The notes below the pieces were generated by a model that worked only from the letters and a program-made list of their open reading frames with translations, was not told the origin of the DNA and did no database searches. Both the position numbers and the translations under genes were made by a program. A stretch of 64,000 bases of DNA, taken from NCBI GenBank assembly GCA_017625775.1, contig JAGAKE010000002.1, positions 248,001 to 312,000 on the forward strand, written 5' to 3'. Source of the DNA: Fibrobacteraceae bacterium. GTDB taxonomy: Bacteria > Fibrobacterota > Fibrobacteria > Fibrobacterales > Fibrobacteraceae. This document shows positions 27,014-43,591 of the stretch, one piece after another (the first letter of the stretch is position 1; every line of letters begins with the position of its first letter).

Positions 27014-27928
27014 TTACTTGAGAACAATCTTTTGGCTGTGGTTAACGGCCTTACCAGCAACGCGAACCATATAAACACCAGCGTCCAAAGAAGCGAGGTT
27101 CAAGGAAGAAGATGCGCTTACAGCACCCTTCAACACAACCTGACCTTGGAGGTTGATAACTTCAGCAGCAGCAACGGAGTTGATGCCGGAGAAGGAAAGT
27201 GTACGGCCAGAAAGCATAGCCTTAACAGAGGAAGCTGCAACTGGAGCAGAGATAGCATCAGAGCCACCACCAGGACATTGACCATTTTCACCAACTTCCA
27301 TAATGTTAAAGTCACCAGAAGTACCAGCCTTACCGGAGAATTTAACCTTAACGGCAGCAACCATTCCCAAATAAGATGCTTGAGGAACGGTTACACCCCA
27401 ACCTGATTCTTGTTTGAAATCAGACCAAGCGAGGTTTACAGTGGTCTTGCTTGCTGCAACTTTCAACTTGCTCATGTAGTTATTGTATTCAGTAACAGTA
27501 GCTTCATCTTCTGGAGCAACTTCCAAAATAGGAGCAACACTAGCAGAATAAGTGATGCAAACACCACCCCAGCTAGTTACATCAGCACCAGTCTGAGATG
27601 GACCAGTCAAGTTAAAGCCAAGACCTGCGAATGGGTAGTCGTAACCAGCACCAAGTGATACATTACCACAAAGGCCACCACAGTTATCAATGATTGGGTC
27701 AAGAGCGTTATCATCGTATTCGTTACCAGTTGGTACAGGCCAAGTGATAGCAGAAGAACCACCATTTGCGTCATCAGCATAGGTGTACCAGTAACCAGAT
27801 TCGTCAGAACCATCGTCCAAACCAGTATCTACGCGGTAATCACCATTTGGTCCGCTCCATGTAGTCAAAGCAGAAACCATTGTTGCAGCAGCAAGGAAAG
27901 CTGAAGCAATAAGAATTTTCTTGTTCAT
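27014..27928 (-). CDS. secreted beta-rich protein with T9SS type A sorting domain
   Basis: A 304-residue secreted protein. A signal peptide (ILIASAFLAAATMVSA) precedes a beta-rich domain of about 190 residues with GYWYTYADDANGGSSAITWP, LGFNLTG and WSDFKQESGWGV, which resembles jelly-roll carbohydrate-binding domains of the CBM11/CIA30 type. After a short Gly/Ser/Ala linker come about 75 residues ending AEVINLQGQVVLKGA ... GVYMVRVAGK ... KIVLK, a type A sorting domain of the type IX secretion system. It has no enzyme domain, so binding or structural function is inferred. It has its own promoter-like sequence and terminator, and lies downstream of the cellulase genes. Confidence 0.8.
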   Translation of the reverse strand: MNKKILIASAFLAAATMVSALTTWSGPNGDYRVDTGLDDGSDESGYWYTYADDANGGSSAITWPVPTGNEYDDNALDPIIDNCGGLCGNVSLGAGYDYPFAGLGFNLTGPSQTGADVTSWGGVCITYSASVAPILEVAPEDEATVTEYNNYMSKLKVAASKTTVNLAWSDFKQESGWGVTVPQASYLGMVAAVKVKFSGKAGTSGDFNIMEVGENGQCPGGGSDAISAPVAASSVKAMLSGRTLSFSGINSVAAAEVINLQGQVVLKGAVSASSSLNLASLDAGVYMVRVAGKAVNHSQKIVLK

Positions 27929-28158: not shown

Positions 28159-30360
28159 CTATTGCTTATTTAGCCGTAAAATAAATTGGTTAGATTCCTG
28201 CTTAATTCTCATTATATAAAGCCCTGCCGGTAATGTTTCAATAGACAAGTAGTGCGAACCACTAGAATAATATTTAGAAAAACTCTGTTCTAATTTGCCT
28301 AATGCAGAATAAATATCTAAAGAAACCAAACCAGGCTTTGCAATTTGCAACAAAACTCCATTACTTTGCATTTCTGCACGGAATGGGATACTTGGAGCAA
28401 GCGCTATAATTGGAGATTCTTCATATTCCCCTTTATTCACCGCAAGAGAACTATCTCCAATAACTACTGTTATTGTTTTAGAAAAAGCTTCATAAAAGTC
28501 TGTTTCGGGAGCGGTTGCTGTTATAGCGACAATTGCATTTTCCGTACCTGCAACAATTCCATTTCCAACATGAGTTAAATATGGAGTCGTTGCTTCACCA
28601 TTAAATGTATATGTTACAGGAATTCTTTCATTCATCATTGTGTCTGGCAAACAATCGGCAACAGAACCTCCTAATGCAATATTTTGATCTTTAAATTTTG
28701 AATGAATTCGATTGAAAGCTTTTGCCAAAGTAACTGTAATGGTATCATTTAAAGCTCTATAACCTGTAACTGCTGGCGCCGTAGCCACAATTTTAGCTTC
28801 ACCTAATGATTTAAATTCAATCATAGTAACACTAGCATTTAAATTATCCCCATAGCAATACGAAGAATTCGAGCAAACTGCTTTTTTTACATCAGCAACT
28901 GCAGGATTTAAAGAAGTCAAGGTAAATGTAGCCCCTTCATTTGTTTTTCCTGTTGAGGATATTACAACTTCTTTTAATCCAGATTTAGTCAAATCGCGCA
29001 TTTGACGGCTACCACTACAAGAACCATTCAAGCGACACAGAAAGTCTTCAAATTTGCTAATAGTTTGCTTAGGTTCTGCAGATACCATTACAACGGATTT
29101 CGAACCATCATTTCCTTGCAAAATAGCATAGCCAGCACCAATCACCTGTAATGAAGAACCATTCACAACAATTACACTTTCATCGCTAGATGTATAAGAA
29201 CACGACGCATTCAAAACACCTTCAATTGATGCTTGTGTTTCCTTTACTGTTTGAGTTTTGAAGGAACAAGCTCCAGTAGCGCCAGCCACTAAAGTATCAG
29301 CCCAAGAACTACGATACTGATTTAAATAATTTGTTACAAGTTTTCCTGATGAAGTAAAAGTTGCTTTGCTCAAAGCTTCTTTTGTTGTTAAGTATTCACT
29401 ACCATTCAAAATAGCTGATTCTTCATTTGAATTGTTTAAAGTACTTGTGTATTGACGCATACTCCAATTGCAGTTACTAATTTTATTTTGTTCCATAAAA
29501 TTAATCCACTGTTGTGTAGCACTAGCATCTGGATTTCCAGAACCACTTGCAGAAGTAGTGCCCCATTCAGAAATAAACACTGCATTACCGGAATTAATTG
29601 CACTTGTTATTCTGTTACCATATGTTCCTACACTATGTGAAGCGGCATAAAAGTGAAATACATAAGCAACATTTGTTGCATTTACATTACCATAGCTAGT
29701 CAATTGAGACCAACTCGGTGTACCAACAAGAATCAAGTTCTGCGTATAATTTCTAATTCCCGCTCCGATATTGTTAGCATAACTTTGAATTGTGGCCCAA
29801 TTTGTATTTACAGGCTCATTATAAATTTCATAAATAATATTAGGCACATTCGCATACTTTTGAGCTACATAATTAAAAAATTCTTTTGCTGCAAGTAGTT
29901 CACTTTCAGCACGATGACTATGCCAATCTACAATAATGTAAACATCATTTTCAATAGCAGCCTGAATCATTTGATCTAATTTTGATAAGTAACTTTCTTT
30001 AGCGCCCATGTAAGAATATGCTTCATCAAGAGGGTCAGAAGCACTGCCCTGGCTATTGTAATATTGAATACCCATAGCAAAGCGGAAAACATCTATTCCA
30101 AGAGTTTCCGCCATATAGGAAATCACCTCTGGGTTATAATATTGAATACCTGTAGCATCTGACCAGAAAAGACTAATACCTCGTAACATCACTTGTTTTT
30201 GATTTACTAGGCTTATAATTTTTCCGCCACTAGTCCCAAGAGCGCCATAATTCTGCACAGGCCCTACTCTCAACGGCTTTGCAGAAAGAGCGTCTGCAAA
30301 AGCACTTGACGCACCTAACGCAAAGGCAGTGACCAATAATAAATTCAATATTTTTTTCAT
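28159..30360 (-). CDS. secreted GH5 endoglucanase with T9SS sorting domain
   Basis: A cellulase of 733 residues that should cut internal beta-1,4 bonds of cellulose or related glucans. After a signal peptide (ending SSAFA) comes a GH5 barrel at about residues 30-350, subfamily-2-like: VMLRGISLFWSD, YIIVDWHSH, the acid/base Glu182 in IYEIYNEP and the nucleophile Glu265 in VFISEWGTT. The next 300 residues are beta-rich modules with TVTLAKAF and TKTITVVIGD repeats, which look like Ig- or cadherin-type linkers. The C-terminus (YSALGKLEQSFSKYYSSG ... GLYIMRIKQ) is a type A T9SS sorting domain. It lies 75 bases after the GH8 gene with no terminator between and AAGGAG before its ATG. Confidence 0.93.
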   Translation of the reverse strand: MKKILNLLLVTAFALGASSAFADALSAKPLRVGPVQNYGALGTSGGKIISLVNQKQVMLRGISLFWSDATGIQYYNPEVISYMAETLGIDVFRFAMGIQYYNSQGSASDPLDEAYSYMGAKESYLSKLDQMIQAAIENDVYIIVDWHSHRAESELLAAKEFFNYVAQKYANVPNIIYEIYNEPVNTNWATIQSYANNIGAGIRNYTQNLILVGTPSWSQLTSYGNVNATNVAYVFHFYAASHSVGTYGNRITSAINSGNAVFISEWGTTSASGSGNPDASATQQWINFMEQNKISNCNWSMRQYTSTLNNSNEESAILNGSEYLTTKEALSKATFTSSGKLVTNYLNQYRSSWADTLVAGATGACSFKTQTVKETQASIEGVLNASCSYTSSDESVIVVNGSSLQVIGAGYAILQGNDGSKSVVMVSAEPKQTISKFEDFLCRLNGSCSGSRQMRDLTKSGLKEVVISSTGKTNEGATFTLTSLNPAVADVKKAVCSNSSYCYGDNLNASVTMIEFKSLGEAKIVATAPAVTGYRALNDTITVTLAKAFNRIHSKFKDQNIALGGSVADCLPDTMMNERIPVTYTFNGEATTPYLTHVGNGIVAGTENAIVAITATAPETDFYEAFSKTITVVIGDSSLAVNKGEYEESPIIALAPSIPFRAEMQSNGVLLQIAKPGLVSLDIYSALGKLEQSFSKYYSSGSHYLSIETLPAGLYIMRIKQESNQFILRLNKQ

Positions 30361-30435: not shown

Positions 30436-32631
30436 TTACCGCTGAATACGCACACTACGAGAATATTCAGAATCAGTAATGCGAATCATATACACACCCT
30501 TACTTAAATTTGTGCTAGTTAAATCTAACGATTTTTGTCCTGAAATTTTTGTTGCCAAAACTTCAGTTCCATCTAAAGAATATATTTGCACTTTCACATC
30601 GTTTTTAAACCCATTAAAGAACACCGTGTTTCCGTACTGAGCTATAGAATGAGCATTTACTTGATTTTTAAAACTTTCTGGAATCGCATTTGTACCTTGC
30701 ATTGATTGAATAATGTTACCACTTGCATCTAGCAAAGAAACTTGAGTTAAAGCAAAAGATGCATAACCAGCTTTAGCCATTTTTGCATCAAATTTCAAAC
30801 CACGTACTGCAGGTAAAACATCACTACAAGAATTTTCCCATGCCCAACTTGGGAATGTCAAAGTATTAAAATCACCATAAGAATCACAAGAAATATCTAT
30901 ATCAATAGTTGTAAATTCAGCTACTGGAGGTAAATAAAAACCCGGTTCGCCCCCCTCATTACCATCGCTGAGAGTCATTTGATCTAATAAAGCAAAACGC
31001 ATTACACCTTCACTTCGATAAGTAATTCGCACGGTATTTAAATCACTTAAATTGTAATAACCTTGATTTTCATCGAAAGACACCGAAATACCAGCAAAGG
31101 GGTACTTTAAATCAGCATCTGCATCATAAGTAGGTTCAGGCCCTATAAAGAGTTCTGTTGCCACAACAGGAACACCGTCTTGCAAATAAAGCCCACTCGT
31201 TCCAGAATCTGGATACATAACAGTGACCCCAAGCTTATCAGAATAAGCACCCCAACGTTCAAACCCAGAGATAGAATACCCACTTCCTTCAGGTTGTAAT
31301 TCCCCAATAGGAGCTTTAGGGCGACGAACTCCATTAATTGGATCTGGAGTAAAATCAGTGTAACCAGTCATATTATAAAAATTTGGCATATTGCCAGTAA
31401 GAGTAAGCAAGTAAAGAATATTCAAGGTAGCGGCAAAATAATTTTCCCCTTTTCCTGCTCTAGCACTATCCTTACCCACTGTATTACGCAAACAATAATA
31501 AACCGTTTCTAAATAATTTTTTTCATCATCTACAGAAGCCATCGCAAGGCCTAAACCGCCGGTATAAGTAGAAGAAACGAAAATGTCTGCATTAGAAGTA
31601 CCATCTAAATTATAACCAGGTAAAATCATTCCAGCATAGCCGTAGGTGGAGTTGTACAACCAATTAGAAATGGCTACGTTAACAGCTTTTGCTTCTTCTA
31701 AGCCATACCAATGATACCCTTGAGCTGTACGCCAAGCTGTTCTTGCGGCGTCATCACCAAAAGTTCCACCACCGGTTCCAACAGCAGCACCAGTTGTAGT
31801 TCCCTTATGCGTATTCCAATCACACCAGTCTGGCATTAATCCCGTTGTTTTATCTTGACATAAACGTAAATGATTTAGTGTAGTTGCAGCGGCTGTATTC
31901 CAAAATGCATCACCTGTCACTTCTGCAAATAGTTTAAATGCTGCTACATTAGAATAACTTGGGTTAAAAGCATCGTTCCAATTACTACCAGGACGAACGC
32001 TTCCATCAGAACTCATATCATATTGTTTTGTCCAAGTGATTAATTTTTTTGCATCATCAAGGTAAGAAGTGTTACCCCATTGCTTGTAAGCCATCACAAG
32101 GGCGACCGCCGCATCAAATTCAGCATCACTTGCGGTTCCTCCACTTACAGAACCTTTATAGTTATCTACTTGCCAATCCATCCCCTGGCCGCTCCAAGAA
32201 TTGCAGCCATTGCCATTCAAACCTTTACCATAACATTTCCAGTACTTCCAAAGTTTATCAAATTCAGTTTGGTAATTATTTTGAGCGCTAGACATATAAA
32301 CTGTTAAAAGCATGCCATAAGCAATTCCTTCGGAAACAGTCAACTCTACGTTTGCATTCGGGCTAATAACGCGTGCCGTTCCACTCGGCATTCTCTGGTT
32401 TGCGTTTTCTGAAGCACCGCCATAAAGTGCATAAAACTGCCCCGCTTCTGTGTACCAAGCTTTTTTCCATGTATTAAAATGATCTTGGATAACAGAAGTT
32501 TCTGCCCCTTGGAATGTTTTTCCATAAGGGTAAATTTTATTTTGTGGGAACGGGAACTGTGGTGAAGCAGCAGAAACCGTTGTGATTGCAAAGGCGCTGA
32601 TAATGCCAGCGATTACGAACAAATTCTTCAT
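30436..32631 (-). CDS. secreted GH8 glycanase (endoglucanase type) with T9SS sorting domain
   Basis: A secreted enzyme of 731 residues. After a signal peptide (ending TVSAA) is a GH8 (alpha/alpha)6 barrel at about residues 30-425: TVSEGIAYGMLL with the acid Glu101, GMDWQVDN, GTASDAEFDAAVALVMA with conserved acidic residues Asp169/Asp173, and PSYSNVAAFKLFAEVTG. GH8 members cut beta-1,4 glucan, xylan or chitosan; the neighbouring GH5 genes favour cellulose or beta-glucan here. A beta-rich module of about 200 residues follows, then a type A T9SS sorting domain (QIYSLDGTEVLATKISG ... GVYMIRITDSEYSRSVRI). I start at ATG 32631, after GGAG, and not at the upstream in-frame start. Confidence 0.93.
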   Translation of the reverse strand: MKNLFVIAGIISAFAITTVSAASPQFPFPQNKIYPYGKTFQGAETSVIQDHFNTWKKAWYTEAGQFYALYGGASENANQRMPSGTARVISPNANVELTVSEGIAYGMLLTVYMSSAQNNYQTEFDKLWKYWKCYGKGLNGNGCNSWSGQGMDWQVDNYKGSVSGGTASDAEFDAAVALVMAYKQWGNTSYLDDAKKLITWTKQYDMSSDGSVRPGSNWNDAFNPSYSNVAAFKLFAEVTGDAFWNTAAATTLNHLRLCQDKTTGLMPDWCDWNTHKGTTTGAAVGTGGGTFGDDAARTAWRTAQGYHWYGLEEAKAVNVAISNWLYNSTYGYAGMILPGYNLDGTSNADIFVSSTYTGGLGLAMASVDDEKNYLETVYYCLRNTVGKDSARAGKGENYFAATLNILYLLTLTGNMPNFYNMTGYTDFTPDPINGVRRPKAPIGELQPEGSGYSISGFERWGAYSDKLGVTVMYPDSGTSGLYLQDGVPVVATELFIGPEPTYDADADLKYPFAGISVSFDENQGYYNLSDLNTVRITYRSEGVMRFALLDQMTLSDGNEGGEPGFYLPPVAEFTTIDIDISCDSYGDFNTLTFPSWAWENSCSDVLPAVRGLKFDAKMAKAGYASFALTQVSLLDASGNIIQSMQGTNAIPESFKNQVNAHSIAQYGNTVFFNGFKNDVKVQIYSLDGTEVLATKISGQKSLDLTSTNLSKGVYMIRITDSEYSRSVRIQR

Positions 32632-32662
32632 ATTAAACTCCATCTAGGTAGTGAAAATAAAT

Positions 32663-32799: not shown

Positions 32800-32825
32800 A
32801 AAAAAGCTCCTTATTTTAAGGAGCT
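32800..32825 (-). terminator. terminator of the six-gene outer-membrane set
   Basis: On the minus strand a perfect 9-bp stem (AGCTCCTTA and complement, AAA loop) followed by a T run, directly after the GH18-like gene. Confidence 0.9.
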
Positions 32826-32830
32826 AATTT

Positions 32831-33892
32831 TTATTTCTTCTTTTTCGGTTTATAATCTATATCAGGACGCAATTCAAGACCAATTGTGACTAGCAATGAA
32901 ACAATTGGCTCATGATGATCCTGTGATAAATCATAAACAGCAACACCAGCCATGCCTTCACTCTTCACTTTTTGAGAAAGTGCTTGCACAGAAGGAATTC
33001 CCATAAAAACAATTGCTTCAGAAGCACTAACAGCATATTCGGACTTTGTAGATTCATCAAAAGTTACCTTATAGTCAGGAGAATCAAATTTTCCTAACAA
33101 CTCTTTATAAGAAAGGTAGCCTTCATTTCCACTTCCAATTCCCGAATGAGATGAACCTAAGCCTGTTGCTCCAGTAAAGGATTTTCCGTACATATAAACT
33201 ACAGGAATCATTTTTTCTTTATTTAAACCCTTTCCTGTCATAACATTCAAAGCTTCTTCAATTGAAGTCAAACTTTGGTTTGGTTTCAAAGCAGATTCTT
33301 CTTCAGTCATTTGATCTGGCATAAATACAGTCACATAATCCAATTCATTTAAAACAGAAACATCGTATGCATCTGCTGAAACCATTGGATAAACGACCGC
33401 AGACAAAATGTATTTTCCATTAAAGGCTGTTTTCAAAGCATTTAACAAAGCACTATAATCAGCGGTATTTTCTGCAGCTAAATTTTGCCAATCAATTTCA
33501 ATACCAGAAGCTCCGTTTGATTCCATCCAAGAAACCAAATTAGAAGCAAATGCATTGCGAGATTCTTCTGATGCAGCAATTTCTTGCAAAGTAGATTCCA
33601 TTTCCATTCCACCTACAGAAACTACTAGCTTTACCCCATTTTCAGCAGAAAGCTTGGCAAGTTCTTTTAGGTTTGGTGCATCGTTTTCATCGGCAAGAGC
33701 AACAGTTCCATCTGATGATGGATTTAGAGACGCATAATGAATATGCGTCAATAATGAATAACGAATATCCTTTGGATAAAATTGAGAATACTGACTCCAA
33801 TAAGGGAAGAACCCTACAACCTTATCAGCAGCGGCATGTGCCATCATAGCACAACCTAATGTCAAAGCAATAGCGATAGTTTTGATATTCAT
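32831..33892 (-). CDS. secreted GH18-fold protein with altered catalytic motif
   Basis: A 353-residue exported protein (signal ending AHAAA) with a GH18 barrel over its full length: VVGFFPYWSQY, VVSVGG (the SxGG strand), VVYMYGKSF (the usual product-strand motif) and GVAVYDLSQD. In active GH18 enzymes strand four reads DGxDxDxE. Here residues 129-136 are S-G-I-E-I-D-W-Q: the catalytic Glu is Gln136 and the second Asp is Glu, while Asp134 is kept. Hydrolysis is therefore unlikely, and a sugar-binding role as in chitinase-like lectins or SusE/F-like partners is inferred. It ends in a Lys-rich tail (DYKPKKKK). Last gene of a six-gene set, 16 bases after the lipoprotein gene. Confidence 0.87.
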   Translation of the reverse strand: MNIKTIAIALTLGCAMMAHAAADKVVGFFPYWSQYSQFYPKDIRYSLLTHIHYASLNPSSDGTVALADENDAPNLKELAKLSAENGVKLVVSVGGMEMESTLQEIAASEESRNAFASNLVSWMESNGASGIEIDWQNLAAENTADYSALLNALKTAFNGKYILSAVVYPMVSADAYDVSVLNELDYVTVFMPDQMTEEESALKPNQSLTSIEEALNVMTGKGLNKEKMIPVVYMYGKSFTGATGLGSSHSGIGSGNEGYLSYKELLGKFDSPDYKVTFDESTKSEYAVSASEAIVFMGIPSVQALSQKVKSEGMAGVAVYDLSQDHHEPIVSLLVTIGLELRPDIDYKPKKKK

Positions 33893-33908
33893 AAAATCAC
33901 CTTACTCG

Positions 33909-34766
33909 TTATTTAATTTCGCGAATGAGTGCACCATCAGCGCAATAAAGTTTTGAGACTGGATAAGTTTCTGTTTGAATAGGATTATCAAGTTCGTCAT
34001 CTTTACATGCTCTATATGGCCAACCATGAGAACGACCAAATAAAACATACTGATAGCTAATTGCAAAAGTATCTACAGGAACTTTAAGAAGTTTTTCGTA
34101 ATCCTTCTCAGTATCATGGAAAGAGAACAACTTCAACTGGCGCACAACATCTTTTGTTAAACCACCGGATATTTCAACCTGAATAGTTTCGCAAGAAAGA
34201 GTATCGAGTTCCGTTTTCGTTCCTCTTTTAGCTACAGCATAATCTGCACCTATAGGGAATGTGACTAACGTTGCTTTTGTAGAATCTTCATAACCTTCAA
34301 TTTCAGTGATAATTCCATCTGCATCGTAGGTAATATTTTCTACATAAACAGTCACAACAGCATCATTGACCAAATCGTCAAGTTTCATAACGACCGTGTC
34401 TTCTTTTGTGGTACAAGCAATTGAATCTTGATAATACGATTCCCAAGATTCTTCCCAAAGTTCCTCAGAATAACCACCTAAAGTTGGGTCCGTATAGATT
34501 TTATGTAATTGAGCGGTATCTGCCATAAATGCAGCCGTATCCGCTTCAATTTCTTCTTTGGAAAGACCTAAGTTATCGTTATATGCATCTACATAATCAC
34601 GAACTTGTAAACTGCGCAAAGATGGATGCAATTCCATATATTCGGCAGCCACAAAATCAGAAGGGAAATTTTCTTCAACTGCTTCTGCCTCATCTACTTC
34701 CATGGAAGAACATGCAGTAAGAGCAGCAACAGCAAGAAGCATTAAATATTTGAAAGAATTCTTCAT
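33909..34766 (-). CDS. lipoprotein of unknown function in the outer-membrane set
   Basis: I do not recognise this 285-residue protein. It has a lipoprotein signal with lipobox LTAC (Cys19) and an acidic start to the mature part (SSMEVDEAEAVEE). It then has a helical part with EEIEADTAAFMADTAQ and a beta-rich C-terminal half with three pairs of conserved-looking Cys (YYQDSIACTTK, LSCETIQVEIS, YRACKDDEL, SKLYCADG). The Cys residues suggest disulphide bonds, so it is outside the cytoplasm. It lies 11 bases after a barrel gene and 16 before the GH18-like gene, which places it with the barrel proteins as a probable outer-membrane partner. Confidence 0.75.
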   Translation of the reverse strand: MKNSFKYLMLLAVAALTACSSMEVDEAEAVEENFPSDFVAAEYMELHPSLRSLQVRDYVDAYNDNLGLSKEEIEADTAAFMADTAQLHKIYTDPTLGGYSEELWEESWESYYQDSIACTTKEDTVVMKLDDLVNDAVVTVYVENITYDADGIITEIEGYEDSTKATLVTFPIGADYAVAKRGTKTELDTLSCETIQVEISGGLTKDVVRQLKLFSFHDTEKDYEKLLKVPVDTFAISYQYVLFGRSHGWPYRACKDDELDNPIQTETYPVSKLYCADGALIREIK

Positions 34767-34777
34767 GATAATACCTC

Positions 34778-36910
34778 TTAGAATGCTACCGTAACATCGG
34801 CGATAATTACGTTTTTATCTATAGAAAGTTCGTCGTTTACAGCAATTGGTGTTACACCATCTTCAGCCACTCCCATTCTTGAGAAGCTAACTGCATTAGT
34901 CAACATTCCATACTGCACAGAAATGTAAGAAGCCGGAGCAATTTTAATGCGTGGACCTACAAGTAAAAGAGCTTCTTCTGCTTTAGTAATTGCAGATTCT
35001 GTAGCAATCCAAAGCGGATTACCATATTCCTTTACAACGCTTTGGTAACCAGCAAGCAAGGAAATTGGTCCCCAAATATCTAAAGAAGCACCAGCCATGA
35101 TTCGATCAGAAGTGCGTTCATAGAAAGCATCTTCTTCTGCATGATCATAAGATCCCTGAATGATAAGATCACGATCAAGACCAAATAAACGACCAACATT
35201 AACACCAAGACCTGCTGCAAATTGAGTGTATTTGTTATCGATTGCATCTTGATTGTATTGAGAGAAACGTCCATTCACTTCAATAGCTTCTGCATAATCC
35301 AAATCTAAAGATACCGCAAAGCCTTTACGATCAGGAGTTGCTATTCCATAAGGCAAAGCCATGTTCATAGAAGGATCCATCAGCATAAATGCTTCTGAAG
35401 CTTCAAGTCGTTTCATAACATCGGCATTGTAACCATTACGATAGAAATGAGCATTCTTGAAGTTATTGTATAGACGAGAGGTAGAGAATGCAGATTCCAA
35501 ATCTCCACTCAAAGCCGTAGCTGAAGCAGGAGACATAATGTTCTGCTGATTCAATGGATTTGAATTGTAAACAGAGAAGTAAAGATTTTCAAGGCTTGAT
35601 GCTCCAAAAGAAGCAACCAAATTCGTATATACTGAATCAGCATACAAACCATTGGAATTCAACACAACAGAATTTCCACGATATGACGGCGAAGAAGCCA
35701 TTTCTGACCAGAAATTTTCGTCATTTTGTAAATAGCGACCTTTCAAATCAAAGCTAAAATCACCAAATTCACCCTTTACAAATGGTTCTACATAAAAACT
35801 CATTCCATCGTCATCGCCAAATTTCTGTTTAACAACTTTATTTGAATACTTCGTTTGCGATTTGATGTATGCCACAGTATCTAAGATACCATCTACATTA
35901 GGGTAAAGCCCTGTTGAAGTTCCATAGAAAGGTTCTCCAACACGTTCAGATGTCCACATATCGGCTTTCCACCAAGACATAGCCATTTCACCAAAGACTC
36001 CAAATGAAATTGGAAGATTTGAAAGCGCTGACTTTGAATCGTAACCGACTTCAGCAGAAAATACTGCGTTGTCGTCTAGAATCAATGTATCTGCAGAACC
36101 TTGATCATGAGAATCTGTAGAAAGTTTTCTATCAAAAACATTTACAAAGTTCGCTCCAACATGAGCTCCGAAAACATCTAAGCCTAAACGACCGCCATAG
36201 AGGTAACGATCTGACCAATCGAAATCAAAGAATACCTGATCGTTTTTCTTAGCAATGTTACGTAAACGAGCGCCAGTTGCTTGAGCGTGAATATCATCAA
36301 AGAAAGCAACCTTTCCGCTATGATAATCTACATTCAAACCTTGCAACAAACGCCTTGACGTAGTGTCAAGATTACGTTGAGCTAATGCTTCCGAACGGCT
36401 TTCTGCAAAAACTTCTGGTTCTTGCAAAAGTTCTGCTTGCGGGGTGTGCATAGTTAAAGGTGTATAACCTACACGCATATAACCTAAGTTAAAAGCAAGC
36501 GTTTTATTGAATAACAAACCATCGTAAGAGAACCAGTGGCCTAAAACCGGGTTATTATTTTCTTCAAAACCACTCTGCCAATCTTTGTGCAAACGGAGTT
36601 CTACACGAACTTCTGTTTCTGAACTAGGGCGAGCAGTCACAACCAAGTTAACATCTGTATAAGCTTGGTTTTCTTGAGTTGGAGACAAATCACTAAATTG
36701 ATCAGAAGAAGCCATAGAAGTAGCTCCACCTGCTTTTGCAGAACCATTAAGTTTTAAACCCAAAACGGCTGCATTTAGTGAATCCAATTTCTCTAAAAGA
36801 GATTTTTGTTGTTGAACAACTGTATCTTGTTCTGCAGCAAACGCCGTTGCAGCAGAAAGCAAAAGAGCAGAAGTTAAACCAATCGAACGCATTTTCATAT
36901 TAAAGCTCAT
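34778..36910 (-). CDS. outer-membrane beta-barrel protein, PLTM family (third barrel of the set)
   Basis: A 710-residue protein with signal peptide (ALLLSAATAFAA), a short coiled-coil (VVQQQKSLLEKLDSLNAAVLGL) and then many alternating beta strands to a terminal Phe (NVIIADVTVAF), the usual signature of outer-membrane barrels. It carries the motif TPLTM at about residues 150-154 followed by a Glu/Arg-rich loop, shared with its two neighbours. I start at ATG 36910 with GGGAGGG seven bases upstream. It resembles the next barrel more than the first. The family is not one I can name; a porin-like or adhesin-like role is possible. Confidence 0.8.
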   Translation of the reverse strand: MSFNMKMRSIGLTSALLLSAATAFAAEQDTVVQQQKSLLEKLDSLNAAVLGLKLNGSAKAGGATSMASSDQFSDLSPTQENQAYTDVNLVVTARPSSETEVRVELRLHKDWQSGFEENNNPVLGHWFSYDGLLFNKTLAFNLGYMRVGYTPLTMHTPQAELLQEPEVFAESRSEALAQRNLDTTSRRLLQGLNVDYHSGKVAFFDDIHAQATGARLRNIAKKNDQVFFDFDWSDRYLYGGRLGLDVFGAHVGANFVNVFDRKLSTDSHDQGSADTLILDDNAVFSAEVGYDSKSALSNLPISFGVFGEMAMSWWKADMWTSERVGEPFYGTSTGLYPNVDGILDTVAYIKSQTKYSNKVVKQKFGDDDGMSFYVEPFVKGEFGDFSFDLKGRYLQNDENFWSEMASSPSYRGNSVVLNSNGLYADSVYTNLVASFGASSLENLYFSVYNSNPLNQQNIMSPASATALSGDLESAFSTSRLYNNFKNAHFYRNGYNADVMKRLEASEAFMLMDPSMNMALPYGIATPDRKGFAVSLDLDYAEAIEVNGRFSQYNQDAIDNKYTQFAAGLGVNVGRLFGLDRDLIIQGSYDHAEEDAFYERTSDRIMAGASLDIWGPISLLAGYQSVVKEYGNPLWIATESAITKAEEALLLVGPRIKIAPASYISVQYGMLTNAVSFSRMGVAEDGVTPIAVNDELSIDKNVIIADVTVAF

Positions 36911-36925
36911 TCTTAAACCCTCCCA

Positions 36926-39169
36926 TTAAAATTCCACATTAATGGAAGCTTCGATGATAGACTGTGTAAATTCATGCGTGTACTTACCAGCTTGATCTGT
37001 TGTTACATCGTAGTAATCCGGAAGATTATAAGCACCTTCTGCAGAACCAGCAGCTACAAGACCAGCTGTATTGTATTCATTTTCAACAGAAATCATACCA
37101 TAGTTCAAAGAGAACCATGCGTTTGAAGCAAGTGAATAATCTAAACCAACCATCCATTGCATCTGTTTACTTTTCAACATAGGAGCTTTCAAATTAGTAA
37201 TCATGCCCTGGAAATCATTATATTCTGTTGTAATGTATTGGAAACCAGCAGTCACACCAAGTCTTGGCAAATACTGAACGTAAATACCAGCATTGATAAA
37301 ATCACTCTTTAATTCTGCTGTTCCATCTACTAAGCCAGCAAGAGCCCAACCATCTGTATCGATACTACGTTCAGAATGTTTATAAGAACCTGAAATTTCA
37401 AGAGGTGTTTTGAATCCTATCAACTTGAAAACATCCACCTTAGCGCCGCCACCATATTCCATGTAAGAAGCTTCTTTGAAGCCAACAAGTGGTGATACTT
37501 GGTTAAACATACTAAATAAACCCTGAACTTCAGCAGCTTCAGACCAACCTGCAGTTAAAACACCACGGGCACCCATACGGTTTGAGGTAGCTAAACCATT
37601 TGGCAAGGAAAGCTGGAGTGCTGGATCTGTCATGGTTTCAATTAGAGCTAATTGATTACGAGTATAAATTGCCGTTCCCCAAGAATTTTTATTGAACGGA
37701 GCAATGTTATAACTTTCTGTTTGACCATCACGAATTCCACCATCATCTGTTGCAAGGGAGGTTGATGCTGGAGAAAATTTTGGAACATAATTATAAAGAG
37801 CATCAAAAGAAGAATACAAAGGAGCATTCACACCATAACGAATGGAATTTCCATCTTTATCTGTATTCAAAATACGTTGAGCAAAGAATTGTGGAGATTG
37901 AGCTAAGTTGTTAAACCAGTTGCTATCGTTACGAACAAAGTCAACAACTAAGTTCAAATTCAAATCTGAAACTTTATAACCTGCATTCAATGTCACAAGT
38001 AAAGCAGTTCCATTCAAAGTTTCCTTATCAGCCACATCAACAAATACTTGTTCTCCAGATTCAGGATCAACCAAAGGAGTTGCTCCTGTTGGGTCTGCTG
38101 GATCCATTGCAGGAACAGATGTATGGGTATAAACATCATCAGAAGAATAAGCAAATTCACCAACAAGGTCCAAAGTCAAATCTTTTGATTTCAAAAGCCC
38201 TGCTACATCAGCACCAACTCGGCCACTCACGACCATTGTTTTCTGTGGATCTACATCAAACGGATTCACAGGTTCTAATTCGTAAGGCATTGAAAGGTCA
38301 TTTTCTGGATGACGATAAGTGTATGTAAATGAATCCTCGTTATCAAAGATATACATTGGAGTTACACCAACATACAAGTTCTTGCTCAATGGAAGCAATT
38401 CTAAGTTTCCAGCCACTAACCATTTGTCCATATTAGCAGCCTGAGATGCACCAGCAAAAGTTCCATTTGGGAAAATGTTTCCTTCGGCACCAGAAAAATC
38501 GAGAACTGCAGGGCGATTCAAGCGAGCAAAAAGAGCTTCTGCACGAAGTTCACCAGCAGCGTCATTGAAATAATGACGGAACTGAACATTCGCCCCTTGA
38601 AGATTTCTTTGGTTTCCTTCAATCAATTCCTGCTTTTGAGCCATGTGACGCTTGCGAGCAAAAATTGTTGGCTCATACATCACATCTACGCCTGGAGCAT
38701 ACATAGTTAAAGGAGAATATTGTTGGCGGAAATCCCCAACAATCCAATAAAATGATTGACCAATATTCCCTTCTACATTAATCCAACCCACAGAAAGAGT
38801 CTTTGAGGCAGAGGAGAAATATTCTTGCATACCTGCTCCAAGACGAAGCATTACATTGGCACGAACATTTTCCCATGGACGGAAATGAAAATCAAGATCC
38901 GCCATTGCCACAGCACTACGTTCCTCGTCCGGCATAATATTTTTACCAGTAGGATCCTGGTCATTATCAAGATAAGAGTTCTGTGTAACAGCACGAATGC
39001 TTCCACCGATTTCAACACCACGCTTGGCATTGATAGAATCTACTTTATCTTCCAAGGCTTTTTGGTTATCAAAAACAGAGGTAGCAGAAGCTAGAGCTGT
39101 CGCGGATAACAAGACCGTTAAAGTTCTTTTCCACATTTTAAAACCTTTCGAACTTTTCTTCATATTCAT
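36926..39169 (-). CDS. outer-membrane beta-barrel protein, PLTM family (second barrel of the set)
   Basis: A 747-residue protein with signal peptide (TLTVLLSATALASAT), a short helical stretch (NQKALEDKVDSINAK), then amphipathic strands to a terminal Phe (SIIEASINVEF). Motif YSPLTMY is at about residues 151-157, followed by YEPTIFARKRHMAQKQELIEGNQRNLQG in part, similar to the corresponding loop of the third barrel (ending RRLLQGLNVDYH). This similarity marks the two as paralogues. Long loops with DPADPTGATPLVDP-type turns suggest surface exposure. It lies 15 bases after the first barrel gene and 15 before the third. Confidence 0.8.
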   Translation of the reverse strand: MNMKKSSKGFKMWKRTLTVLLSATALASATSVFDNQKALEDKVDSINAKRGVEIGGSIRAVTQNSYLDNDQDPTGKNIMPDEERSAVAMADLDFHFRPWENVRANVMLRLGAGMQEYFSSASKTLSVGWINVEGNIGQSFYWIVGDFRQQYSPLTMYAPGVDVMYEPTIFARKRHMAQKQELIEGNQRNLQGANVQFRHYFNDAAGELRAEALFARLNRPAVLDFSGAEGNIFPNGTFAGASQAANMDKWLVAGNLELLPLSKNLYVGVTPMYIFDNEDSFTYTYRHPENDLSMPYELEPVNPFDVDPQKTMVVSGRVGADVAGLLKSKDLTLDLVGEFAYSSDDVYTHTSVPAMDPADPTGATPLVDPESGEQVFVDVADKETLNGTALLVTLNAGYKVSDLNLNLVVDFVRNDSNWFNNLAQSPQFFAQRILNTDKDGNSIRYGVNAPLYSSFDALYNYVPKFSPASTSLATDDGGIRDGQTESYNIAPFNKNSWGTAIYTRNQLALIETMTDPALQLSLPNGLATSNRMGARGVLTAGWSEAAEVQGLFSMFNQVSPLVGFKEASYMEYGGGAKVDVFKLIGFKTPLEISGSYKHSERSIDTDGWALAGLVDGTAELKSDFINAGIYVQYLPRLGVTAGFQYITTEYNDFQGMITNLKAPMLKSKQMQWMVGLDYSLASNAWFSLNYGMISVENEYNTAGLVAAGSAEGAYNLPDYYDVTTDQAGKYTHEFTQSIIEASINVEF

Positions 39170-39184
39170 AACTTAAGCCCCTCC

Positions 39185-41416
39185 TTAGAACCAAACCTTC
39201 GTTTCTGCAGCAATGTAATGAGAATGCCAATCATTAATCGAAAGTGTTTCGTCGGAATGAGTCATCCATTTATAGCGAACGTGCAAGCCAGCACGATCAG
39301 CAAAATCCCAATCAAAGCCTAAGCCTATCGCCGTTTCCATATAGTTGATAGGAGCCTTTACATAGTAAGAAGTTCCTACTTGTGTTACTAATGAGGATGT
39401 CTTCAAAATTGTGTTATCCACACTCATAGTAGTATATGCGTTTTCAGCACGGAATGTTTCAAGCCCTAAAATACCTACAACGTGGAATTTCGGAGTAACC
39501 GCAATGGTTGGTTCAAATTGACCGTAGAAACTCCAGAGCAACATATCATCTTGAGATTCACTATATGCTAGTGGAGCAAAGGAAGTTGAAATACCAGAAA
39601 GGGAAGCGTAGGCAGTCATCATGATATTACGATCTGTACCAAACCAATGACCAATATCATAACCACCCATTAAAGATACGAAAGAAGACCACTTGGTATG
39701 AGCAGGAACAACGGAATCACGTAATTGCTCTGCATTTTCGTAAGCAACAAAAGATTCCCACATTTCCCATGTTCCACCATAGAGACCGCCCTTCTGACGA
39801 AGCATTTTTACACCAGTTCCGCGATGTTGAACGCCTGTGCGAGCTACATAGCCATTTGCACGTGGGTTAGCGTTACCAGAGTCAGCATTAAACAATGGTT
39901 TATGCTTTGTCCAAGAATTAGTACTTTCCCACATATTACGGCCATTTAAACGATAGTTGAACGCGAGAACATCGTTTCCTTCTTCAACTTGTCTATGCTG
40001 ACCATACTGGAAGTCAAAATAACCACGATTGAATGTAGGTTCTAACTTAAAGTTAAGACCCATCATATTTGGGGTATAACGAAGAGAACCAGCATTTAAA
40101 TACATTTCATCTTTACGCCAACTTGTAAAGCGAGATGGGTTGCTCATAGAATAAGGTGAGTAGAATTCTTTTGGCAAATAAATACCTTCAAGAGTCATTG
40201 GCCAGCCTTCTACATACTTACTTTGAGCCTTTACGTAAACACCAACTTGCGGAGTAGCAAGTTCTGAATCATAGGAATTCTTTTCATAACCTGCAATAAA
40301 ATCAGATTCTTCAGATTTATAGAATTTCATGGAATCTGTAATGCTTAAAGCAACATCAGCCATCAAATAAAGTTTTGGGGTAATATTTCCCTTCACATCT
40401 AAAGAGGCAACGTGTGTATTCAGCAAGTGTGGTTGAACTTTAACAGCATCCCATTGAGAATAGAAATCTTTTTCATAAACGATTCCTTCGTCAAAAACGA
40501 CACCCATATAGTTCAAGCCAAGGCTCAAATTATCAAGAATCTTATTTTTCGCGATGCGACCATGATAAACGTCGCCACGGAAATCATGCATACCATAAGT
40601 TTCTAGTTCGCCCGGTTGACCACCATAAAGACGAAGACCATCACGAGTACCCATGTCAGCATCGATTGGCTGAGATAACATGAATTGTGCAGTCATGTTC
40701 CAAGGAAGTTGGTAGAAATTGAGGAACAAGCCACCAAATGAACGGTTTGTCCAGAATGCACGACCACCTTCTTTTACTGGTTTAAAGGATTTTTCTTTAT
40801 AGTAAGTACTTACTGTTTTTTCATCTTCAAACAATTCGTATTGCCAAGAGAAACGAGGAGCTGTTTCACGTTCCCACATTGTTAGCGGAGAAGAGTTAGC
40901 CCAAATCACACCACCTGCAGTTACATATGCACCAAAAACGCCTGCACGAATATCAACGCCTACGTTAAATTCTTCGTTAATCGTTGGGCCATAGTAATCT
41001 GTTGAGTGATCCCAAAGAACTCGTTCATCTGCTGTAGGAGCATTTGTTGGAGTTTTGGAAAGCAAGTTTCCATAAGTTCCAGACAAATCAAATGGGAATG
41101 CCAAATTTGTCCACAAGGTCATGTAGGAATTTGGCATAGCAACAATAGACATATTCAATAACGCATCTACTGGAGTACGAGCATAATCGCTACCTGTCCA
41201 AGGAGAACGTTCTGAATAATGGAAATTTTTCAAGCGAAATGCCATGTAACCAGAAACTGCTAATGGCAAATCATCTTTGCCAAGCAAGGTGGATTCCATG
41301 TTGGAAGCTAGCGTATCCAAAGAAGCGTTAATAGAATCCAATTGAAGCTGTGGTGGCAAAGCCAACGCGGCACTGACGCAAGAAGCAAGAAGAATAGAAG
41401 TAAGTTTTTTACGCAT
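39185..41416 (-). CDS. outer-membrane beta-barrel protein, PLTM family (first barrel of the set)
   Basis: A 743-residue protein with signal peptide (MRKKLTSILLASCVSAALA), a short helix (LQLDSINASLDTLASNM), then beta strands rich in Trp and Tyr to a terminal Phe (HYIAAETKVWF). It carries SSPLTMW at about residues 175-181. Its sequence is the most divergent of the three and the loop after the motif is longer. Aromatic residues are frequent in the predicted strands and loops, which fits contact with sugars but does not show it. It starts nine bases after the stop of the CBM-like gene. Confidence 0.8.
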   Translation of the reverse strand: MRKKLTSILLASCVSAALALPPQLQLDSINASLDTLASNMESTLLGKDDLPLAVSGYMAFRLKNFHYSERSPWTGSDYARTPVDALLNMSIVAMPNSYMTLWTNLAFPFDLSGTYGNLLSKTPTNAPTADERVLWDHSTDYYGPTINEEFNVGVDIRAGVFGAYVTAGGVIWANSSPLTMWERETAPRFSWQYELFEDEKTVSTYYKEKSFKPVKEGGRAFWTNRSFGGLFLNFYQLPWNMTAQFMLSQPIDADMGTRDGLRLYGGQPGELETYGMHDFRGDVYHGRIAKNKILDNLSLGLNYMGVVFDEGIVYEKDFYSQWDAVKVQPHLLNTHVASLDVKGNITPKLYLMADVALSITDSMKFYKSEESDFIAGYEKNSYDSELATPQVGVYVKAQSKYVEGWPMTLEGIYLPKEFYSPYSMSNPSRFTSWRKDEMYLNAGSLRYTPNMMGLNFKLEPTFNRGYFDFQYGQHRQVEEGNDVLAFNYRLNGRNMWESTNSWTKHKPLFNADSGNANPRANGYVARTGVQHRGTGVKMLRQKGGLYGGTWEMWESFVAYENAEQLRDSVVPAHTKWSSFVSLMGGYDIGHWFGTDRNIMMTAYASLSGISTSFAPLAYSESQDDMLLWSFYGQFEPTIAVTPKFHVVGILGLETFRAENAYTTMSVDNTILKTSSLVTQVGTSYYVKAPINYMETAIGLGFDWDFADRAGLHVRYKWMTHSDETLSINDWHSHYIAAETKVWF

Positions 41417-41425
41417 AAAATCCTC

Positions 41426-42163
41426 TTAAATCGCGTTGCGGAATGGATAGTTAGCAGGACCTTCATAAGGTTTGCCGTGCTTCTTAATTACAACATCATC
41501 AATCCAAACCTTAAATTCTGTATTTTCATCCTTGCGGACTTCTAAACGGAAACCCTTAAAATTAGCCCATCCGAATGGCATAAAGACATCGCGAGTATTT
41601 TTAGCATCCCAATAGAGACCTGTCATACCGAATAATTTCAAAGGAATGCTTACATGCTTCCATTCCGTTGTAATTTCACCAAAACTAGAAGAACGAAGCT
41701 TTACCTGGAGTGATTCACCACCGCTTTTAACACCGTCATCAACTAGTACGAACAAAGCGTTTTCACCACCCTTGTTTCCCTTAATCCAGAACTCAAGGAC
41801 GCCTTCTTCTAAATACGGAGTCAAATCAACAGAACCAGCAATACAGATAGCTACGCCAGAATAATCACTTGCAATAAGTTCTATTTCCATAGAAAGCGCG
41901 CCTTCTTTGGCATACTTATCGGTCATGATTGGTTCTGGGTTTTCTCGAGGATATTGGTAAGTATAACCACCACCGCGAGGAATCGCTTCGCGCATGATTA
42001 CAGACACAACATCCTTATCTGGACGGAAAGGTTTTGGGTCCTTTAAGATGAAACGGGACTGGTCGCGATCACGATATTCGCTAAAACCGGCGTAAGAAAA
42101 AGACACAAGAAGAAATGCGCTCAAAGCACACTTCCAGATAGCATTCTTTAGACGTGAGTTCAT
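41426..42163 (-). CDS. secreted carbohydrate-binding-like protein, head of the six-gene set
   Basis: A 245-residue exported protein. The signal peptide is WKCALSAFLLVSFSYAG. The mature part is one beta-rich domain with GALSMEIELIASDYSGVAIC, LEFWIKGNKGGENALFVLVDD, WKHVSIPLKLF and FKVWIDDVVIK. This layout resembles the CBM11/CIA30 jelly-roll seen in Fibrobacter glycanases and in polysaccharide-binding proteins. No catalytic domain is present. I start at ATG 42163, giving a normal signal; the longer TTG reading is less likely. It heads a six-gene set and shares an upstream region with the divergent GH5 lipoprotein gene. Confidence 0.78.
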   Translation of the reverse strand: MNSRLKNAIWKCALSAFLLVSFSYAGFSEYRDRDQSRFILKDPKPFRPDKDVVSVIMREAIPRGGGYTYQYPRENPEPIMTDKYAKEGALSMEIELIASDYSGVAICIAGSVDLTPYLEEGVLEFWIKGNKGGENALFVLVDDGVKSGGESLQVKLRSSSFGEITTEWKHVSIPLKLFGMTGLYWDAKNTRDVFMPFGWANFKGFRLEVRKDENTEFKVWIDDVVIKKHGKPYEGPANYPFRNAI

Positions 42164-42406: not shown

Positions 42407-43591
42407 ATGAAAAAATTTTTACTTTTCACGGCATTTTGCGCAAGCTTGATAGCATGCTCTGAAGACTCTAAAGGATTAAGTGCTTCAGAAGAATCCAACG
42501 AATCTTCAAGCGACTCTGTCGCCTATGTTCCCGTTCCAGTAGATTATTCTGCAGGAAGAGCTATGAACAAAAGACTTGGTAAGGGAATGAACCTTGGTAA
42601 TTCTTGGGATTCTAAATCTTATAGCGGAGACGTTCCAGACGAACCCTATAACTTTGGCTATAACGATAATCTTGACGCTGGCTGGGGCAACCCAATTAAA
42701 GACGAATATTTCCAAATCCTTAAGGATGCGGGCTTTAATTCTGTTCGTATTCCTGTTCGTTGGCAACACAACTCAGACCCGGTTACTCACACCGTTAATC
42801 CAGAAAGATTAGCTGGCGTTAAAGAAGATATTCAACTAGCTATGGACGCCGGCTTAGCAGTTATTGTGAATTTCCACCACTATTCAGAATTAAATGAAGC
42901 CGCCAATAATTCTGATAAAGACCCTGCTGCATACGAAGCAGAAAAAGCTCACTTTTTTGCATTGTGGGAACAAGTGGCTGAAGAAATGAATGCTTTCCCA
43001 GATTCTCTTTTGGTTTTAGAATTGTTAAATGAACCAACAGTAAAAAGTGTAGATCACCTTAATGAAATTACCCTGGGAGCTTATGAAATCGTTAGAAAAA
43101 AAGCTCCTAATAAAACAATTATGATTGAATCGTACCATGCAGGGAAATTTGCTGACATTGACGTTCTTAGATTACCACAAGACGGAAATATCATTTTCTC
43201 TGGTCACTATTACGAGCCATTTACTTTTTCTCATGAAGGACACGGTTACAACTGCGTAGGAGATGAATCTTATGTAAATAGTGCCATGACTGATATGCAA
43301 AAATATGTTGCTATTGCTCAATCCATGTACCCAGATGTAAATGGCGGGCACATACCTATGAACCTAGGTGAATTCGGAGTAGCCGGTCAAACAGGATCTT
43401 GCGGTTCTAATGGACCTTCTGATAGAAGTCGTTTGCTTTGGACTAAGAAAACGATTCGTGCCGCAGAAACATACGATATGTCTTGGCATTATTGGGGATT
43501 CACAAAAACTGGTGGATTTGAAGCATACGATTTAAAAACTAATTCTTGGCTTCCTGGAATGCTAGATGCGTTTCAAAATCCTAACGACTAA
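42407..43591 (+). CDS. GH5 endoglucanase lipoprotein
   Basis: A cellulase of 394 residues bound to a membrane by lipid. Lipobox LIAC (Cys17) is followed by a Ser/Glu/Asp-rich tether (about 20-47) and a GH5 barrel close to subfamily 4 or 2 forms: GMNLGNSWDSK, NSVRIPVRWQ, VNFHHYSEL, acid/base Glu209 in LELLNEP and nucleophile Glu322 in MNLGEFGV. There is no sorting domain, so it reaches the surface by a different route than the GH5 at 28159. Its 3' end overlaps lpxA tail to tail by 11 bases. It diverges from the six-gene set, which suggests a shared task. Confidence 0.94.
   Translation: MKKFLLFTAFCASLIACSEDSKGLSASEESNESSSDSVAYVPVPVDYSAGRAMNKRLGKGMNLGNSWDSKSYSGDVPDEPYNFGYNDNLDAGWGNPIKDEYFQILKDAGFNSVRIPVRWQHNSDPVTHTVNPERLAGVKEDIQLAMDAGLAVIVNFHHYSELNEAANNSDKDPAAYEAEKAHFFALWEQVAEEMNAFPDSLLVLELLNEPTVKSVDHLNEITLGAYEIVRKKAPNKTIMIESYHAGKFADIDVLRLPQDGNIIFSGHYYEPFTFSHEGHGYNCVGDESYVNSAMTDMQKYVAIAQSMYPDVNGGHIPMNLGEFGVAGQTGSCGSNGPSDRSRLLWTKKTIRAAETYDMSWHYWGFTKTGGFEAYDLKTNSWLPGMLDAFQNPND

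Follow-up and report, generated by a model that had tools for sequence, protein, structure and literature searches.

Fibrobacter is a main cellulose degrader of the herbivore gut, we know of no cellulosome in it, and a chain-import model was proposed earlier for Fibrobacter and Cytophaga. Among the described systems closest to the locus studied here is SusCD of the Bacteroidota, which likewise combines a barrel, a surface glycan binder and a lipoprotein encoded with glycoside hydrolases, and has the capture and import role that we propose below. SusC is TonB-dependent and carries an N-terminal plug, and a SusD/RagB lipoprotein is encoded beside it. Plugless barrels for oligo- or polysaccharides are represented by chitoporin, AlgE, OccK and the Sphingomonas alginate uptake model. 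For Fibrobacter itself, a proteome study stated that the mechanism of cellodextrin transport was unknown (PMC6851124), and published views differ on whether glucan chains pass through the outer membrane (PMC3079729, PMC4668043).

The stretch of DNA analysed here (64,000 nt, hereafter the window) belongs to a Fibrobacteraceae genome of 2.0 Mb that is 71% complete (G000). It contains six minus-strand genes at 32831-42163, ordered A-B-C-D-E-F from 5' to 3' and separated by 9, 15, 15, 11 and 16 bases, as an earlier note on this DNA had described. The block ends at a hairpin terminator on the same strand (32805..32825, a 9-bp stem and a T run with the tail TTTTTCT), which that note had placed at 32800-32825; such hairpin patterns also arise by chance (9 found against 7.1 expected from shuffles), but the stem at this position is perfect and lies at the operon end. 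On balance we favour the view that these genes provide the outer-membrane components of a system for cellulose capture and cellodextrin uptake that is not related to SusCD. No description of such a system, or of its barrels, was found in the open-licence papers searched, in agreement with the earlier note.

Three of the genes encode predicted outer-membrane barrels: B (39185..41416, 743 aa), C (36926..39169, 747 aa) and D (34778..36910, 710 aa). The signal, the (S/T)PLTM motif and the terminal Phe that had been noticed earlier were seen in all three. Among the homologues the motif is mostly (S/T)PLT[MLIV], and the terminal Phe is shared by 123/123, 122/124 and 103/104 sequences, respectively. 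AlphaFold predicted beta-barrels for B (pLDDT 77) and C (pLDDT 85, pTM 0.83), each with the short N-terminal helix that had been claimed; the model of B resembles that of C at lower confidence, and both predicted models show the many amphipathic strands, signal and terminal aromatic residue of outer-membrane barrels. In the model of C, about 22 strands are joined by short turns at one side of the barrel and by long loops at the opposite side. Strand parity places the (S/T)PLT motif of this model in extracellular loop 3; residues 415-530 make up another conserved loop, and of approximately 73 strongly conserved positions 11 and 19, respectively, fall within these two loops. In B and C the part ahead of the first strand is only some 50 residues long, which leaves no room for a TonB-type plug, and both are predicted to be plugless, in contrast to SusC; a Pfam match to TonB receptors was also lacking among the window proteins.

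The lipoprotein E (33909..34766, 285 aa) carries the lipobox LTAC, and its assignment in the earlier note is borne out by a lipobox in 98 of 101 homologues and a near-lipobox in the remaining 3. Where SusCD has SusD/RagB, E gave no Pfam match in the profile search of the window proteins, and PF07980 (SusD) had no match in the window genome and was found in 9 of the 168 genomes of the phylum. The block, already described as different from SusCD in the earlier note, further departs from it in having two unrelated barrel families together with a CBM30 binder, and in the linkage of the B-C barrels to ABC importers and phosphorylases (see below). It differs from the oligosaccharide porins in its larger barrels (about 22 strands against 16-18), in the lack of a sequence relationship, and in the constant association of two barrel families with CBM30 proteins. 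A match to a known porin family, which the earlier note had regarded as contrary to its proposal if that family had no sugar role, was not found: B, C, D and E had no match in Pfam or NCBIfam, and a PDB sequence profile search with the barrels gave no relative. The Fibrobacter members of the PopA ring-barrel superfamily, FSU_2404 and FSU_0230, were considered as candidates, and are other genes, encoding 16-stranded proteins.

The six-gene block is conserved throughout the family. All parts were mapped in 128 retrieved loci. Among the 108 Fibrobacteraceae loci (window included), 95 keep the order A-B-C-D-E-F on the same strand. The other 13 run into a contig end or contain ORFs that are fused or frameshifted. 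Median gaps across the Fibrobacteraceae loci were 9, 6, 15, 7 and 13 bases. The flanking genes (GH5, GH8, lpxA) are rearranged between genomes and the block remains intact; the order, loss of which would have spoken against the system envisaged in the earlier note, is kept family-wide, which argues that the block is more than a chance arrangement. Essentially every sequenced Fibrobacteraceae species has the six genes in this order, and barrel C had no match in three incomplete Fibrobacteraceae genomes (62-81%).

Across the phylum, barrel C is present in 146 of 168 Fibrobacterota genomes. When barrel and CBM30 were tallied together, 145 genomes had both, 20 neither, 1 only the barrel and 2 only CBM30, two genomes without listed names being placed by elimination; the three discordant genomes are incomplete. 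All 9 genomes without GH9 also lack the barrel. These co-occurrence counts ignore shared ancestry; the absences are nevertheless scattered across many genera. Four small genomes of genus g15 in the class Fibrobacteria (G160-G163, 87-100% complete) are without barrels, CBM30 and GH9, and provide a natural contrast that lacks these cellulose genes. As far as searched, the system is specific to the Fibrobacterota: when 84,980 species were scanned with the alignment of B, the best 80 of 123 matches comprised Fibrobacterota and three short, oddly labelled contigs.

The surroundings of the block point to cellulose. Divergent from A lies a GH5 cellulase gene (42407..43591, plus strand; Pfam Cellulase, 126 bits) in the position of Fisuc_1523/FSU_2005; this GH5 gene adjoins A in most Fibrobacteraceae loci. 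On the other side are, on the minus strand, the GH8 (30436..32643; 93 bits) and GH5 (28159..30360; Cellulase, 152 bits) genes of the earlier note, both real by Pfam and both with a T9SS-type C-terminal tail (Por_Secre_tail just below the cut-off in GH8 and below it in GH5). Unlike these neighbours, A and F had no Pfam match to PF18962 (Por_Secre_tail). A 304-aa protein with a T9SS-type tail, also below the cut-off, is encoded at 27014-27928; members of its family occur together with the GH8 and GH5 genes next to the operon in many genomes, and precede the CBM30 gene in g14 loci.

The link to cellulose that the earlier note drew from these neighbours became stronger outside the Fibrobacteraceae. 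In other Fibrobacterota classes B and C are followed, in one operon, by a protein of about 1050 residues with the architecture CBM30-CBM30-CBM11-GH51-like, the same as that of Cel51A of F. succinogenes (Fisuc_3111), with which we equate it by architecture only. In the Fibrobacteraceae the Cel51A-type protein is encoded apart from the barrels: each of 8 genomes has a single gene of its own for it, with 48-50% identity over some 1000 residues to the protein of the other classes, and A of the window aligned only to the first CBM30 of the latter (42%). ABC-importer genes adjoin B in 21 of the 26 non-Fibrobacteraceae loci (L160-L185) whose neighbourhoods were read. Most are of the opp type, comprising SBP_bac_5, two BPD permeases and two ATPases, one with oligo_HPY; these are usually on the strand of the barrels, divergent in L161 and L180, and partial at contig starts. 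In the class Fibrobacteria the importer is instead of the CUT1 type, with SBP_bac_1. GH94 or GT35 phosphorylases or GH9 cellulases are often found nearby, beyond the importer genes. That these barrels adjoin importers of two unrelated types provides an independent argument for uptake. Orthologues of the opp-type solute-binding protein were found in the Fibrobacteraceae tested, mostly with 57-73% identity (G152 has only fragments and a paralogue), and in the window genome permeases and ATPases adjoin the orthologue on contig C30. Since importer, Cel51A and phosphorylase lie outside the six-gene operon in the Fibrobacteraceae, the link in this family is one by orthology.

The barrel trees, rooted at the midpoint, suggest how the two arrangements are related. 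In the tree of B, type I (B-C-Cel51A) and type II (A-B-C-D...) separate with 100/100 support, and G156 and G158 of g14 carry both, from which it appears that the Fibrobacteraceae kept type II and encode Cel51A apart. C and D share profile matches, D forming its own clade, so that by sequence they are paralogues, and B is a separate family. Neither this relationship nor the B-C-Cel51A unit, which is the more widespread one, was part of the earlier note; the same holds for the counterparts of the block in F. succinogenes S85 and for the experimental detection of two of its members there.

In S85 the published locus tags are Fisuc_1523 (GH5), Fisuc_1525 (CBM30, FSU_2007), Fisuc_1530 (GH18, FSU_2012, CBP-9) and Fisuc_1531 (GH9) (PMC3079729, PMC4668043, PMC4619616, PMC6851124). 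From Fisuc_1525 to Fisuc_1530 (FSU_2007 to FSU_2012) there are four genes between CBM30 and GH18, the same layout as in the window, and by order and annotation this segment is the likely counterpart of the block, which is also present in MAGs labelled F. succinogenes. For the four middle genes no published text was found by locus tag in open-licence papers, where only the two end proteins are mentioned. Fisuc_1525, the counterpart of A, was detected both in the medium and in the cell envelope of S85, the CBM30 protein being present on glucose and cellulose alike, and Fisuc_1530, the counterpart of F, is recorded as cellulose-binding with high and stable expression (PMC4668043, PMC4619616, PMC3079729, PMC6204037). 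A slight decrease on cellulose was reported for FSU_2012 (-1.30; PMC6851124). Cellulose induction was therefore not seen, but constitutive expression still fits a cellulose specialist. Cel51A is a constitutively expressed endoglucanase of S85 (PMC6204037).

Taken together, the block is probably the long-missing outer-membrane machine by which cellulose is held and sugar chains are taken in. The earlier proposal of a system that binds or passes polysaccharide at the surface is supported; for its transport part we infer an inward passage of glucan through the barrels, with all the proteins joined in a single complex. In the mechanism that we propose, the CBM30 protein A and the non-cutting, glucan-binding GH18 lectin F would bind individual beta-glucan chains on the outside of the cell, B and C would form plugless channels with D as a paralogous extra pore, and the glucan would be selected by two conserved loops on the extracellular side, the one with (S/T)PLT and the long second one. 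Lipoprotein E may attach or gate the barrels. Cellodextrins in the periplasm would then be taken up by the ABC importer and split by the phosphorylases in the cytoplasm. The analysis thus names two barrel families not described before, a putative GH18 lectin whose lack of catalysis is conserved, and the importer and phosphorylases that accompany them, and with these genes named the question of cellodextrin uptake in Fibrobacter becomes testable.

The main rival, to which we give a minor though appreciable probability, is that the barrels are an anchor or display platform on which CBM30 protein, GH18-like lectin and Cel51A are presented at the surface for adhesion or vesicle formation, uptake proceeding via other porins. 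The linkage to CBM30 is even tighter than that to the transporters, and both A and F are putative binding proteins without catalysis. A (41426..42163, 245 aa) is a secreted stand-alone CBM30 protein, as its CBM-like appearance had suggested (66.8 bits against a Pfam cut-off of 27; PDB sequence relatives 1wmx and 2c24), and this membership makes it a putative binder of cellulose or beta-glucan. Cel51A is reportedly cell-associated until cellulose is met, and a role in the blebbing of the outer membrane has been suggested for it (PMC6204037, citing earlier work). For a pure anchor, however, it is unexpected that two unrelated ABC importers and GH94/GT35 phosphorylases are repeatedly encoded next to the barrels, and two or three barrels of more than 700 residues seem excessive. 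Against the uptake reading, part of the CBM30 and GH18 proteins of S85 was detected in the culture medium, and cellulolysis was held by the authors to be mostly extracellular (PMC4668043).

A bolder form of the uptake reading is that the barrels thread whole single cellulose chains, peeled off the crystal by the CBM30 protein and the GH18 lectin, into the periplasm for endoglucanases. If true, this would name the channel of the chain-import model. Such import is conceivable, but the data do not require it and we regard it as doubtful.

Could the GH18 fold of F instead reflect the true substrate, chitin or a peptidoglycan-like GlcNAc polymer? F (32831..33892), the CBP-9 counterpart, aligns to the whole of PF00704 (150.2 bits, profile positions 1-317 of 317), and the absence of the catalytic Glu reported in the earlier note is confirmed: where active chitinases have DxxDxDxE, the window protein has Gln at the Glu position (ASGIEIDWQN). 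In an alignment of 107 family members this column is Glu in 8, all from g14 of the class Fibrobacteria, and in none of the 99 Fibrobacteraceae F proteins, 78 of which have Gln and the rest another residue; G[VI]E[LV]DWQN is found in 11/11 MAGs labelled F. succinogenes. With the catalytic Glu lost in 99/99, F is very probably not a chitinase. FSU_2012, a chitinase by literature assignment, is on the same grounds probably not active as one, and the published link between its abundance and chitinase activity (PMC6851124) deserves re-examination. In g14, GH18 genes with an intact DxDxE lie beside type II barrels (L056, L057, L060), so this branch may use chitin, and growth on chitin is reported for some Fibrobacterota (PMC4814513). 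Nevertheless, a GlcNAc polymer seems a very unlikely substrate of the system, given the loss in all Fibrobacteraceae, the CBM30/CBM11/GH51, GH5, GH8 and GH9 neighbours indicative of beta-1,4-glucan, and the record of CBP-9 as a cellulose binder (PMC3079729).

A secretion or export apparatus, either for polysaccharide as AlgE or for neighbouring T9SS cargo, is brought to mind by AlgE and FimD among the fold matches and by the T9SS-type tails of the GH5 and GH8 proteins. The Foldseek matches against PDB are, however, spread over many barrel families (MtrB, FimD, AlgE, chitoporin, TonB receptors) with TM scores to the query below 0.4, which we take as non-specific, so that no fold family is claimed. 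As no polysaccharide synthase was recognised nearby and the linked transporters are importers with solute-binding proteins, export is highly improbable. Equally improbable are general-purpose porins that lie near cellulase genes by accident, since weak generic barrel/porin Pfam matches in a few relatives (scanned on reduced alignments) stand against phylum-wide co-occurrence with CBM30, operon linkage in several classes, and a CBM30 link that other classes keep despite different surrounding genes.

Finally, a few individual loci are of note. The three oddly labelled contigs (L171, L181 and L185; 5.6, 14.9 and 5.6 kb, with B (and C) genes) are labelled as Thermodesulfovibrionales, Draconibacterium orientale and unnamed bacterium, respectively. 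They are probably misbinned Fibrobacterota; binning error being likelier for such short contigs, no transfer between phyla is claimed. In L084 (G136:C15) an open frame of about 1638 residues for one barrel lies next to D, C not being called separately, which is either a real fusion or a sequencing error. Two copies of the barrel operon, L192 and L214, occur in one MAG (SRR11784286_bin.20), possibly reflecting mixed strains.
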